A DNA stretch of 29,416 bases from a virus. The position numbers and the translations under genes are program-made. The notes beneath the pieces are model-generated. The model did not search any database. It saw only the letters and a program-made list of their open reading frames with translations, and was not told the DNA's origin. The DNA lies in IMG/VR virus record IMGVR_UViG_3300022200_001528, positions 1-29,416 of that record. The stretch is one strand, 5' to 3'. The number at the start of each line of letters is the position of its first letter. Positions within the stretch are counted from its first letter, which is position 1. Positions 19,550 through 25,913 of the stretch are shown here, in pieces.

Positions 19550-20056
19550 ATGACCGCCCCAATCATCGTTACAGGGCCACAGAGAGCAGGCTCACGCATT
19601 GCTAGCCACATCCTTTGCTCTGACCTTGGCGGTGTGTTTGTTGATGAGCTTGAATACTGTCTTCCTTTACCGGATAACGCAGTTGTTCAAGCTCCTTTTC
19701 TTCTTAAGTCCGTTCTTGAGTTATCATTCATTCTCCCAACTGCTAAGTTTGTCTTTATGCATCGTAACCCTAAAGACATTGTAGCAAGTATGCAACGTGT
19801 TGAGTGGTACGCTGACTATTGTGATGATCCTGACTTCTACCCAGCTTATGTCAAACATTGTTATGACTACATCGACATGTTAAAGCAGACGCTAAAACCT
19901 GATCGGTGGTTTGACATTCAATATGAATCCTTAAAAGCTCATCACCTCTTTGTAGAGGATAGAACAGACTTTACAACTAAACAACACTTACCTGGTGTCC
20001 CTAACGGACCTAAAATTTGGAGAAACGATGAATACATTAGAACTCTTAAAGAGTGA
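19550..20056 (+). CDS. Compact sulfotransferase-like protein
   Basis: A 168-residue P-loop-type protein. The start, IIVTGPQRAGSRIASHIL (residues 5-22), resembles the 5'-phosphosulfate loop of PAPS-dependent sulfotransferases. FVFMHRNPKDIVASMQRVEW (about residues 68-87) is a close match to the 3'-phosphate-binding motif (R-NPKD--S). It would transfer sulfate from PAPS to an unknown acceptor such as a glycan, lipid or protein. It is shorter than typical family members (250-300), ending soon after the second motif (WFDIQYESLKAHH, then LPGVPNGPKIWR). The 3' end overlaps the large terminase start by 29 bases. It is an auxiliary gene not found in T7; a role in virion or host-surface modification is speculation. 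Confidence 0.72.
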   Translation: MTAPIIVTGPQRAGSRIASHILCSDLGGVFVDELEYCLPLPDNAVVQAPFLLKSVLELSFILPTAKFVFMHRNPKDIVASMQRVEWYADYCDDPDFYPAYVKHCYDYIDMLKQTLKPDRWFDIQYESLKAHHLFVEDRTDFTTKQHLPGVPNGPKIWRNDEYIRTLKE

Positions 20057-21755
20057 CTTTAAACTTTTTCTTCAAGCTCTTTGGAATCAGCTAGATCTAC
20101 CTAACCCAACCCGAGCACAATACGCTATTGCTGATTACCTACAATATGGTCCTAAGCGTCTACAGATTCAAGCATTTCGAGGGGTAGGTAAAAGTTGGAT
20201 TACTGGAGCGTTCGTTCTTTGGACGCTCTTTAAAGACAATGAGAAGAAGATTATGATTATCTCTGCTTCTAAGGAGCGTGCTGATAACATGTCTATCTTC
20301 CTTCAAAAGCTTATCATGGAGACACCTTGGTTACAGCATATGCAACCCGCTGATGACTCTGCTCGGTGGTCTAGGATTAGCTTTGATATTAAGTGTCCCC
20401 CTCACCAAGCTCCGTCAGTTAAGAGTGTTGGTATTACGGGTCAGCTAACGGGTTCACGTGCTGACCTTATGATCCTAGACGATATTGAGGTACCTGGTAA
20501 CTCCATGACAGAGTTCATGAGAGAAAAACTTCTACAGCTTTGTACTGAGGCAGAATCTATCCTTACTCCTAAACAAGACAGTAGGATTATGTACCTTGGT
20601 ACACCACAGACTACCTTTACCATTTATCGTAAGCTTGCTGAACGTAACTATAAGCCCTTTGTATGGCCAGCACGTTATCCCCGTAAGGTTAGCCAATACG
20701 AAGGACTACTTGCTCCTCAACTTGTTGAAGACATTGATAAAGGAGCTGAATCTTGGGGTGTAACTGACCCTGATCGTTTTGATAACGAAGACCTAGTTGA
20801 ACGTGAAGCCTCCATGGGTAGGAGTAATTTCATGCTCCAGTTCATGCTTGATACCTCCCTTAGCGATGCTGAAAAGTTTCCCCTTAAGTGCTCTGACCTC
20901 GTTATCACTAGCGTTAACCCTACTACTGCTCCCGAATCAGTCGTTTGGTGCTCAGATCCCCAAAACGTCATTAAAGACCTACCAACTGTCGGATTACCTG
21001 GAGATTATTTCTACTCTCCTATGCAGCTCCAAGGTGAATGGGATAGCTACCAAGAAACAATATGCTCAGTTGATCCATCGGGTAGAGGCTCAGATGAGAC
21101 AGCAGCAGCTTATATCTCCCAACGAAACGGTTTTCTGTACTTGCATGAAATGCGTGCTTATCGAGATGGATACAGTGACAACACGTTACTGGACATTCTA
21201 AAAGGTTGTAAGAAGTACGGTGTTACTAAACTAGTTATTGAAACTAACTTTGGTGATGGTATTGTTGCTGAATTATTCCGTAAACATCTTCTCCAAACTA
21301 AACAAGGTATTGACATTGAAGAAGTACGTGCAAATGTCCGTAAAGAAGACCGTATTATTGATACCCTTGAGCCTGTCTTTAATCAGCATAGGCTTATTGT
21401 TAATCGAAGTGTCATTGAATGGGACTTCAAATCAAACCCAGATGCAGCACCAGAAGAACGACTACTATACATGCTATTCTACCAAATGAGTAGGATGTGT
21501 CGTGAAAAGGGTGCGGTAAGACACGACGATAGACTAGACTGTCTTTCACAAGGTATTAAATACTTTACAGATGCTTTAGCTATCTCAGCCCAAGAAGCTG
21601 TTAAAGAACGTAAACGTGAAGAGTGGAACGACATGCTAGAAGCCTTTATGGACGACCCTCAAAGTGAGACAAACCATATAGTTTTAGGTATGTCTTTAGC
21701 TCAAAAAAGACAAGCTAGAGGGAGTGGTAAAAGCTCCCTTCCAACGTGGGTTTAA
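20028..21755 (+). CDS. Terminase large subunit (gp19-like)
   Basis: Packaging motor ATPase and nuclease that cuts the concatemer at the genome ends. I choose ATG 20028, preceded by GGAG at 20019-20022, over a GTG 33 bases upstream; this gives 575 residues, close to T7 gp19 (586). The Walker A segment is AFRGVGKSW (residues 49-57), Walker B LMILDD (147-152), and the nuclease domain starts with VDPSGRGSDETAA (Asp349). A later acidic cluster, VRHDDRLDCLSQGIKYF, supplies further metal ligands. The 5' end lies inside the sulfotransferase-like gene. No gene follows for about 250 bases, and the spacer there is rich in hairpins, as expected near the end of the late operon or the physical genome end. 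Confidence 0.95.
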   Translation: MNTLELLKSDFKLFLQALWNQLDLPNPTRAQYAIADYLQYGPKRLQIQAFRGVGKSWITGAFVLWTLFKDNEKKIMIISASKERADNMSIFLQKLIMETPWLQHMQPADDSARWSRISFDIKCPPHQAPSVKSVGITGQLTGSRADLMILDDIEVPGNSMTEFMREKLLQLCTEAESILTPKQDSRIMYLGTPQTTFTIYRKLAERNYKPFVWPARYPRKVSQYEGLLAPQLVEDIDKGAESWGVTDPDRFDNEDLVEREASMGRSNFMLQFMLDTSLSDAEKFPLKCSDLVITSVNPTTAPESVVWCSDPQNVIKDLPTVGLPGDYFYSPMQLQGEWDSYQETICSVDPSGRGSDETAAAYISQRNGFLYLHEMRAYRDGYSDNTLLDILKGCKKYGVTKLVIETNFGDGIVAELFRKHLLQTKQGIDIEEVRANVRKEDRIIDTLEPVFNQHRLIVNRSVIEWDFKSNPDAAPEERLLYMLFYQMSRMCREKGAVRHDDRLDCLSQGIKYFTDALAISAQEAVKERKREEWNDMLEAFMDDPQSETNHIVLGMSLAQKRQARGSGKSSLPTWV

Positions 21756-22001: not shown

Positions 22002-22649
22002 ATGACCTTCACCCACACCGCCCAACTCCTACACATTACTCCAGACGCTGAAGATCTTATTAGTTACATGGCTAGGGTATCTAATCCCTCTAACCAGTCA
22101 AACACTGAGACCAGTGCTAAACTAATTAAGTACCTAATTAAACATAACCATTGGTCACCTTTTGAAATGGTGAACATGTGTGTAAGTATAGAGACAACTA
22201 GAAGTATTGCTGCTCAAATACTTCGTCACCGTTCTTTCTCCTTCCAAGAGTTTAGTCAAAGGTACGCTAAGGTGGAGAAACAAGCCGCTATCCCCCAACT
22301 GCGTAGACAAGATCAAAAGAATAGACAGAACTCTATTGATGATCTAGATGAAGTATTAAAGAAACACTTCCAGTTCCGTATAGGTTCACTCTACTCCGAC
22401 TGCTATGGACTGTATAAAGAACTAGTTGAAGCGGGTGTAGCTAAAGAGTGTGCTCGTGAAGTACTTCCAATGGCAGCTCCAACTAAACTATACATGAATG
22501 GTTCCATTAGATCTTGGTTACACTACTGTGACCTTCGTACATCTAACGGTACCCAGCGGGAACACGCTCAAATAGCAGCTCAAATACAAGATATCCTCTA
22601 CCAATACCTTCCTAACACTTGTGAGGCAATGTGGTCGAAAGAAAGTTAA
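22002..22649 (+). CDS. thyX: FAD-dependent thymidylate synthase ThyX
   Basis: Makes dTMP from dUMP with methylenetetrahydrofolate, FAD and NADPH, supplying thymidine for phage DNA synthesis. The diagnostic motif RHRSFS (residues 75-80, within ILRHRSFSFQEFSQRYAKV) is intact. The C-terminal segment GSIRSWLHYCDLRTSNGTQ matches the dUMP-binding end of the family. At 215 residues the length is normal. ThyX is a well-known auxiliary gene of cyanophages and other aquatic podoviruses. It is the first gene after the hairpin spacer, which places it at the right end after the terminase or at the left end before the polymerase. The ATG follows an AT-rich leader without a Shine-Dalgarno site. Confidence 0.96.
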   Translation: MTFTHTAQLLHITPDAEDLISYMARVSNPSNQSNTETSAKLIKYLIKHNHWSPFEMVNMCVSIETTRSIAAQILRHRSFSFQEFSQRYAKVEKQAAIPQLRRQDQKNRQNSIDDLDEVLKKHFQFRIGSLYSDCYGLYKELVEAGVAKECAREVLPMAAPTKLYMNGSIRSWLHYCDLRTSNGTQREHAQIAAQIQDILYQYLPNTCEAMWSKES

Positions 22650-22933
22650 GGTTAAACGAGTTTAAAGCTACTTATGAAGCCCTAGAAACAGGTACAGTCT
22701 GGATAGACCACCTTCTTCTAGGTCTTCTTTACTGGTTAGAGTCTAAATTGATTGATGTACGGGTAAAAAATGAGATAGATGAAGCGATTGAAGAGGTTGT
22801 CTTACCCCCTTTACCTGATATGGTCACTCCGTTGTACACAGAAACCCCGTCAGACACGTCTACAAGCCTTCCTAACATGCGTTTAACCGCTCCTTGGTAC
22901 GTTTCCCCGGATGATACTGTTGAACCGCGTTAA
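22631..22933 (+). CDS. Unknown 100-aa protein
   Basis: I do not recognise this protein. It begins with GTG, overlapping the thyX end by 19 bases, with GAGG four bases before the start. Residues 1-20 are basic, and 23-38 form a hydrophobic helix (VWIDHLLLGLLYWLES) that may be membrane-associated. An acidic helix (VKNEIDEAIEEVV) and a Pro/Thr/Ser-rich, probably disordered tail (LPPLPDMVTPLYTETPSDTS) follow. The frame stays open without overlap with another strong candidate, which supports it being real. The start codon is uncertain. Confidence 0.55.
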   Translation: MVERKLRLNEFKATYEALETGTVWIDHLLLGLLYWLESKLIDVRVKNEIDEAIEEVVLPPLPDMVTPLYTETPSDTSTSLPNMRLTAPWYVSPDDTVEPR

Positions 22934-22957
22934 AGGAGCACCTAAAGCTATTTTATT

Positions 22958-23218
22958 ATGATTAAATTGTGCAATGAAGTTACCTACGTTTTACTTTGTG
23001 AGAACAATGTCTATTATGTAGGTACAACAAAAGACTTAAAACATAGAGTTCAGCAGCATTTTAATGGTAATGGATCTTCAGTGACTAAACAGTTTAAACC
23101 TGTTAAACTTGTTAAAGTCTATGCAGGTAATGTTGAAAAAGAGAAAGTACTGTACGGTAGAGCCAAATATGGCGTTAACAAGTGTTATGGTTACGCCTGG
23201 TCTTCCGTTAAAAAATGA
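22958..23218 (+). CDS. Small GIY-YIG nuclease-domain protein
   Basis: An 86-residue stand-alone GIY-YIG domain: TYVLLCENNVYYVGTTKDLK (the two Tyr-containing strands, about residues 9-28), HRVQQHFNG with the conserved Arg, GSSVTKQFKPVKLVKVY, then an acidic helix NVEKEKVLYGRAKYG with a candidate metal-binding Glu. The end, KYGVNKCYGYAW, corresponds to the KYG-xxNVRGG ending of short GIY-YIG proteins in cyanobacteria and their phages, but the RGG part is changed. Such proteins may be homing-type or DNA-repair-like nucleases; no intron or intein is visible here. It is the last gene before the large control region. Confidence 0.78.
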   Translation: MIKLCNEVTYVLLCENNVYYVGTTKDLKHRVQQHFNGNGSSVTKQFKPVKLVKVYAGNVEKEKVLYGRAKYGVNKCYGYAWSSVKK

Positions 23219-23297
23219 CAAAAATTTGTCTAACCATATATCATATAAGCAACCCTGATCATTCCCCCATAGGGGGTATCACCATCCCTTATCAATG

Positions 23298-23401
23298 CCG
23301 CTCCGCACTTCGTGCTCCGCTTCCTTTACCACGTGCTTGAGAATGATTATCACTGCACAACACTGATGAGCAAGGGGAGCGGAGCGCGTAGCGCGGAGCG
23401 G
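23298..23401. repeat. Long GC-rich inverted repeat with four GCGGAGC/GCTCCGC units
   Basis: Arms 23298-23325 and 23374-23401 pair over 28 positions: 23 Watson-Crick pairs, three G-T wobbles and two mismatches, with a 48-base loop. GCTCCGC occurs at 23300 and 23314 and its complement GCGGAGC at 23379 and 23393, both spaced 14 bases apart. The G+C content is far above the phage average. As DNA it could extrude a cruciform; as RNA it would be a very stable hairpin. Confidence 0.8.
23338..23352. promoter_or_regulatory. Fur/Zur-family operator-like box TGAGAATGATTATCA
   Basis: Matches the 7-1-7 Fur-family consensus TGATAATnATTATCA at 13 of the 14 defined positions. A weaker second box (CGGGAATGATTCTCA, 23399-23413; 10 of 14) lies 61 bases downstream. 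TTTACC (23325-23330) and TATCAC (23348-23353), 17 bases apart, could form a weak promoter overlapped by the box. Protein binding is inferred from the motif alone. Confidence 0.5.
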
Positions 23402-23432
23402 GAATGATTCTCAATGTGAGTAAGTGTTAGCG

Positions 23433-23472
23433 ATACGAATACGTATTGTTAGCAAATGCTAATACGAATACG
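23433..23472 (+). repeat. ATACGAATACG direct repeat around a TTAGCA-AA-TGCTAA palindrome
   Basis: Exact 11-base copies at 23433-23443 and 23462-23472 flank the palindrome at 23449-23462. TGTTAGC is also repeated (23425 and 23447). The arrangement resembles an iteron or operator cluster upstream of the early promoter. Confidence 0.65.
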
Positions 23473-23557
23473 AAAAAGTCAAAACATCTGTGGAGCAAAG
23501 ATAAGCAAACCTGATAGGTTGCTTCGCTCGCACGCAAAAATGCTAATAAATGGATGC

Positions 23558-23586
23558 TTGACAAGCGGTTGAGTCGGTGCTATACT
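23558..23586 (+). promoter_or_regulatory. Consensus sigma70 early promoter
   Basis: TTGACA (23558-23563), a 17-base spacer and TATACT (23581-23586) with an extended -10 TGC in front: nearly ideal for bacterial housekeeping RNA polymerase. It points into the early gene cluster, as host-driven promoters do in T7-like phages. ACTAC-GTAT-GTAGT (23584-23597) overlaps the -10 and start region and could be an operator. Confidence 0.85.
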
Positions 23587-25795: not shown

Positions 25796-25913
25796 ACAAC
25801 TAGCTGAGCTAGCTGATGGCTATCCCGAACTTGCTCAGTGCTACGATCTAAATCACATTCATAATCTCAGGGACGCAGCAGAGGAAACGATTGATTACAC
25901 AAGCCGAGATTGA
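25776..25913 (+). CDS. 45-aa early protein overlapping the RNA polymerase start
   Basis: Starts inside the end of the 103-aa gene (20-base overlap) and runs 23 bases into the polymerase gene. The sequence is MSIITTEQLAELADGYPELA, then QCYDLNHIHNLRDAAEETID and YTSRD: helical and acidic, and Leu-rich in its first part. Its stop lies just after the TTG start of the polymerase, so it could couple translation into that unusual start. No family is recognised. It is less certain than its neighbours because of the double overlap. Confidence 0.5.
   Translation: MSIITTEQLAELADGYPELAQCYDLNHIHNLRDAAEETIDYTSRD
25881..25893 (+). promoter_or_regulatory. Ribosome site GAGG and TTG start of RNA polymerase
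   Basis: GAGG at 25881-25884 lies six bases before TTG 25891. No ATG or GTG near the start gives a full-length polymerase; the first in-frame ATG is more than 100 codons inside. This site decides the start. Confidence 0.65.

Follow-up and report, generated by a model that had tools for sequence, protein, structure and literature searches.

A hairpin of tandem GNA heptamers inside the predicted terminal repeat of one terminase lineage of T7-like cyanophages

In the window (the whole 29.4-kb stretch of DNA analysed here, a fragment of a T7-like cyanopodovirus) a long GC-rich hairpin far exceeds every other inverted repeat in strength, and comparison with related phages gives good support to placing it within the predicted direct terminal repeat (DTR), at its centre. 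The hairpin is real and conserved in its lineage, and its location can be stated with good confidence; its function we infer from sequence comparison. Three properties come out of that comparison: the position between two boundary motifs, the restriction to a single terminase lineage, and arms built as tandem GC-GNA-GC units. The reading that we prefer, at a probability of about one half, is a DNA element that would fold when the terminal repeat becomes single-stranded and would act in maturation of the genome ends, in their protection, or in both.

A T7-type gene set is present in the window, including a single-subunit RNA polymerase at 25891, TerS and TerL, and the order of genes runs from TerS and TerL through thyX (22002–22649), a 100-aa gene and a GIY-YIG gene to a noncoding gap and the early region. 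In T7-like phages the concatemer joint is the gap separating the last late gene from the first early gene. The succession of thyX, joint and early region is common to the window, its relatives S-CBP1, S-CBP3 and S-CBP4, and Syn5; further relatives are DSL-LC07 and S-SRP01. Terminal repeats have been deposited for Syn5 (237 bp), P-SSP7 (206 bp, in a genome whose ends were experimentally determined, PMC3350473), S-TIP37 (150 bp) and S-SBP1 (180 bp), and in all four the repeat is bounded by a TTTTGACAnAAATnT... motif on the left and ATCTGT on the right. The left motif has the form TTTTG(A/G)CAnAA... (TTTTGGCATAATTTTGTGAAGGGGTA in Syn5), with the repeat starting a few bases past it and stopping immediately before ATCTGT, or ACCTGT in P-SSP7. 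Both motifs occur at the expected spacing in the window and in most of its relatives, and a DTR is therefore predicted at 23239–23485, in a single copy, as would be the case had the assembly continued across the joint, with a sigma70-like promoter 72 bp downstream as expected for a left genome end. The features concerned are the following.

19995–21755, + strand: terminase large subunit (phrog_38, 1.3e-117)
23213–23238, + strand: left boundary motif A, AAATGACAAAAATTTGTCTAACCATA, adjoining the DTR and positioned like its counterpart in the four cyanophages and at most related loci
23239–23485, no strand: predicted DTR of 247 bp, placed by its boundary motifs, single copy, uncertain by about 2 bp
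23486–23491, + strand: right boundary motif ATCTGT, the first bases past the DTR, from the same four-cyanophage comparison
23558–23586, + strand: sigma70-like promoter TTGACA-17-TATACT with TG before the second hexamer, to the right of the DTR, a probable early promoter

Motif A together with the start of the repeat (23213–23244) also resembles a sigma70 promoter (ATGACA-18-TATCAT), and this segment could be a promoter, a terminase site or both. Just to the left of the repeat lies the inserted GIY-YIG endonuclease gene (22958–23218, Pfam 5.6e-11), of which the close relative L149 has none; at the GIY-YIG-flanked locus of the window, motif A reads AAATGACA in place of TTTTGACA.

A preliminary description of this DNA had reported four GCGGAGC units at 14-base spacing and an inverted repeat with 26 of 28 positions paired, three of them by wobble, all of which the window sequence bears out. 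The heptamer is found as GCTCCGC at 23300–23306 and 23314–23320 and as GCGGAGC at 23379–23385 and 23393–23399, with no copies elsewhere in the window, and four copies were reached in one of 100 shuffles. The 28-bp core has three G.T pairs and two mismatches (A.C and T.T), and ungapped extension yields arms that are 81% complementary across 37 nt. Folded as RNA the hairpin reaches −71.7 kcal/mol (z −7.1), and as DNA a z of −6.1, neither equalled by any of 200 shuffles, and its inverted-repeat score of 26 compares with 13 for the runner-up in the whole 29.4 kb. Each arm is better described as three tandem heptamers than as two 7-mers and a spacer.

23291–23327, + strand: left arm of the long hairpin (inverted-repeat comparison)
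23372–23408, + strand: right arm of the long hairpin (inverted-repeat comparison)
23300–23320, − strand: left-arm module, heptamers GCGGAGC-ACGAAGT-GCGGAGC, centre C(GAA)G (window sequence and family pattern)
23379–23399, + strand: right-arm module, heptamers GCGGAGC-GCGTAGC-GCGGAGC, centre C(GTA)G (window sequence and family pattern)

Scanning with the left end of the DTR alone, the hairpin being ignored, recovered 28 contigs, in which every complete repeat has a hairpin of the same design. The reverse scan, with the commonest right-arm 21-mer, recovered 64 contigs and 49 new loci, about 30 of which (by manual count) are flanked, at the expected spacing, by ATCTGT and a clear left motif, several others having one boundary motif or being cut off. 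At L268, L294, L273, L315 and L282 the 21-mer occurs without recognisable boundary motifs at the usual spacing. Among cultured phages the isolate S-RIP1 has the hairpin (HQ317388, about 22866–23122). The collection comprised 91 distinct candidate repeats, 90 of them shorter than 360 nt, and its hairpin class of 47, which includes one or two false matches and so amounts to about 46 distinct DTRs, is unevenly sampled, most hairpin loci having been found with search patterns based on either the repeat or the hairpin. The hairpin is centred in the DTR: the median gap measures 62 nt on the side of the left motif and 58 nt on that of ATCTGT. The 5.9 kb of repeat contain 37 hits to the arm modules; the 272 kb outside it contain 17, most of which are lone 7- to 9-mers. 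The same element occupies the same place in relatives drawn from one isolate and many metagenomes. An assembly chimera, named in the preliminary description as a possible refutation, is very unlikely, as contig L002 has an identical stretch and the relatives match in place. A contig with two repeats (L298/L312) was considered as proof of physical ends and rejected, as the copies differ.

No comparable hairpin was found in the repeats of T7, Syn5, P-SSP7, S-TIP37 and S-SBP1, and in a ThyX-based scan it was missing from more than half of the terminal repeats. With so many T7-like repeats lacking it, the hairpin must therefore be dispensable for the T7-like cycle in general, and on this distribution it is a lineage-specific addition, not a general requirement. 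The broader proposition that all cyanophage terminal repeats contain a long hairpin was likewise rejected, with little excess outside the GC-rich group.

The lineage in question is one of terminases. On a FastTree phylogeny of TerL all hairpin phages fall on one side of a single branch (34 versus 44), and with IQ-TREE the 36 phages with and 44 without the hairpin are separated by one change (SH-aLRT 90). On the ThyX tree the same label needs five changes, though thyX lies between terL and the repeat; an AU test nevertheless does not reject a single hairpin clade (p 0.205). By these trees the hairpin follows the terminase lineage, which suggests a functional link. The association could also be plain linkage, because the AU test leaves one ThyX clade possible. 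An RNAP tree was unusable as a contrast, enough of that gene being present in hairpin loci only. Some hairpin phages are placed by their thyX (22002–22649 in the window) among hairpin-less phages, hinting at an exchange of thyX between terminase lineages. Among the roles listed in the preliminary description, that of a terminal or packaging structure agrees best with these findings, the element lying within the predicted DTR and its presence following the terminase lineage; the structured RNA and the inserted miniature element fared less well, as discussed below.

In all parsable arms the central pentamer is CTNCG (left arm) or CGNAG (right arm). For the commonest left-arm type, represented by 25 TerL rows, N changed eight times on the TerL tree, and of the 17 other positions 14 never changed and three changed once. 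Two of these three single changes, in the left arm of L251, lie symmetrically around N and convert G-C to A-T within the arm, and the same swap is seen in the window's left arm (GCAC-TTC-GTGC versus GCGC-GTA-GCGC on the right) and in the right arm of L164; in all three the swapped pair is the neighbour of the loop-closing pair. Judged by these substitutions, each arm is kept self-complementary around a GNA triplet, and it is because of this that the long stem contains the A.C, the T.T and one T.G. The mismatches therefore fall where each arm is self-complementary, which speaks against the decay of an old palindrome that had been put forward to account for the wobble pairs. A whole-hairpin MAFFT alignment was poor and hence unused.

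Three-nucleotide loops of this kind bring to mind hairpin promoters of the N4 type. In DNA, a GNA loop on a stem of two or more G-C pairs gives a mini-hairpin that is unusually stable and resists nucleases (PMC4686876), and such mini-hairpins shield 3′ ends from exonucleases (PMC4686876, citing Hirao 1994; Yoshizawa 1994, 1997). In the window, two or more G-C pairs close the GNA loop in GCGTAGC and GCGGAGC of the right arm and in GCGGAGC on the − strand of the left arm, and the left-arm centre, ACGAAGT on the − strand, is closed by one C-G and one A-T pair. Each arm thus shares with d(GCGAAGC) and other GNA mini-hairpins (PMC4686876) a C-GNA-G flanked by G-C pairs, but differs in that the heptamers stand in tandem, in two inverted arms, at a phage genome end, and in that their stability is deduced from this likeness. 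Calculated energies of folding put the long hairpin ahead of mini-hairpins formed separately. At L253, the same virus as L188, a second cluster of arm modules lies outside the repeat, 280–303 nt to the right of the DTR start, and corresponds, as inverse complement, to the middle part of the right arm in L149/L150; from such sequences, arm modules may be copied locally.

T7-like replication would expose the repeat as a single strand in the 3′ tails left at unreplicated ends, and strand displacement at the concatemer joint would likewise expose it. What would then fold is either the long hairpin or the mini-hairpins within the arms, and the fold would most likely act in end maturation, that is, in the steps by which the single repeat at the joint is duplicated and is cut by the terminase of this lineage, and/or would shield the single-stranded repeat from exonucleases. 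Both the folding as a single strand and the role in maturation or protection are in this sense conjectural. A more specific and distinctly tentative version would make the element a terminase-linked single-stranded DNA switch, in which tandem GNA mini-hairpins on the displaced strand direct how the repeat is duplicated at the joint, by priming that step or gating it.

It is doubtful, but conceivable, that the arms are read as duplex, as a pac-type recognition site for TerS/TerL or a partner whose dimeric or multimeric state would explain the symmetry with no hairpin forming at all. Such a site would be expected always to lie within the repeat that the terminase must cut, as the element does, and would agree with the single change by which its presence tracks the TerL lineage and with a left-arm sequence that is nearly invariant in 25 phages; however, the arm middles vary in length and sequence between lineages, and a free N in an otherwise fixed site, set in a C-GNA-G frame in both arms, fits a DNA triloop better. 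A different kind of account, in which a palindromic module that is selfish or spreads passively (akin to REP/MITE, or a product of template switching) settled in the repeat by chance, draws on middle modules that swap as whole units among relatives, on the cluster just outside the repeat in L188/L253 together with part of one in the window, and on similar 21-mers in unrelated bacteria. We consider it improbable: module hits are strongly concentrated in the repeat, there is one centred hairpin per repeat throughout a whole lineage with one change on the TerL tree, and copies of GCGGAGC outside the hairpin, such as a dispersed REP/MITE element would supply, are absent from the window and, with few exceptions, from the relatives. 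The miniature element of the preliminary description is for the same reasons, one centred hairpin per repeat and a rarity of strong copies elsewhere, unlikely as the main account. A host or plasmid origin was also considered and dropped, as the 21-mer pattern matched scattered GC-rich bacteria, with no cyanobacterium among the titles shown, and gave no lead.

An RNA hairpin, at which late transcripts running into the repeat would terminate or have their 3′ ends protected, or which would belong to a small RNA, we also hold to be unlikely; there is little to be said for it beyond the very stable RNA fold and a position past the late genes, in their sense orientation. The fold of the + strand is the more stable in just 12 of 27 members, so that neither strand is favoured, and pairing between cognate arms does not exceed that between shuffled ones (p 0.86), a clear match of the left arm to its own right-arm type being seen in the window alone. 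Neither RNA-level selection, suggested in the preliminary description, nor compensatory change between the arms is thus supported. A search of the hairpin against Rfam gave nothing above the gathering score, which tells against a structured RNA, and a search for intrinsic terminators (a hairpin followed by a T run) gave no sites. Furthermore, early transcripts would start outside the repeat, at the promoter on its downstream side. The use of G.U pairs was tried as an indicator of RNA strand preference and rejected, no preference being seen. The lack of strand bias, cognate matching, terminator and Rfam match weakly favours the view that the hairpin acts as DNA rather than RNA.

The preferred reading, a DNA element that folds in the single-stranded repeat, can be set beside what is known of T7. 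The repeats of T7, Syn5 and P-SSP7 resemble that of the window in being a single repeat at the joint of late genes and early promoter, and those of Syn5 and P-SSP7 also share its boundary motifs; the 160-bp repeat of T7 differs in having no comparable inverted repeat, the hairpin being known in one cyanophage terminase lineage only. Chung, Nardone and Hinkle reportedly described, in 1990, a hairpin end of the T7 concatemer; the resemblance would lie in a DNA hairpin associated with concatemer-joint processing. During T7 infection a hairpin structure was found in DNA containing the repeat (PMC4281155). The position and sequence of the T7 hairpin end are not those of the window hairpin, which is inside the repeat; the best palindromes near the T7 joint are weaker, and lie 92–129 and 170–210 bp to the left of the repeat or span its right edge.

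Smaller elements accompany the hairpin in the repeat.

23264–23276, + strand: minor hairpin CCCCC-ATA-GGGGG, about 30 nt inside the DTR from its left end
23338–23352, + strand: TGAGAATGATTATCA, Fur/Zur-box-like, in the hairpin loop (family enrichment, Zur-box consensus)
23399–23413, + strand: CGGGAATGATTCTCA, a weaker palindrome, also Fur-like, that overlaps the right arm at its end (window sequence)

Small CCCCC-nnn-GGGGG hairpins stand near the start of nearly all DTRs, and a hairpin of at least four C and at least three G was found in 70 of 90, a count in which CCCC was a search condition and the paired G run was not. An exact Fur/Zur-box-like core, TTGAGAAT/ATTCTCAA, occurs in 35 of 90 terminal repeats against a shuffle mean of 0.2, often as TTATTGAGAATnnTTnnCAATAA, and as TGATAATGATTATCA in L188 and L164; given the cyanobacterial Zur-box pattern (PMC9337993), one might guess that a host regulator of the Fur family binds these palindromes. 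Another palindrome, similar to GATACGAATACGTAT, is present at about 23430–23450 and 23459–23474 and recurs with up to two mismatches in 19 of 90 repeats (shuffle mean 0.03).

The way in which T7-like phages regain a second terminal repeat before packaging is incompletely understood (PMC3350473). A hairpin of fixed design, bound to one terminase lineage and present in the cultured S-RIP1 (of Synechococcus WH8101), offers a concrete element to delete or swap. Assemblies usually conceal the genome ends of cyanopodoviruses through circularising, and the boundary motifs allow the physical ends of metagenomic cyanopodovirus genomes to be predicted from their sequence.
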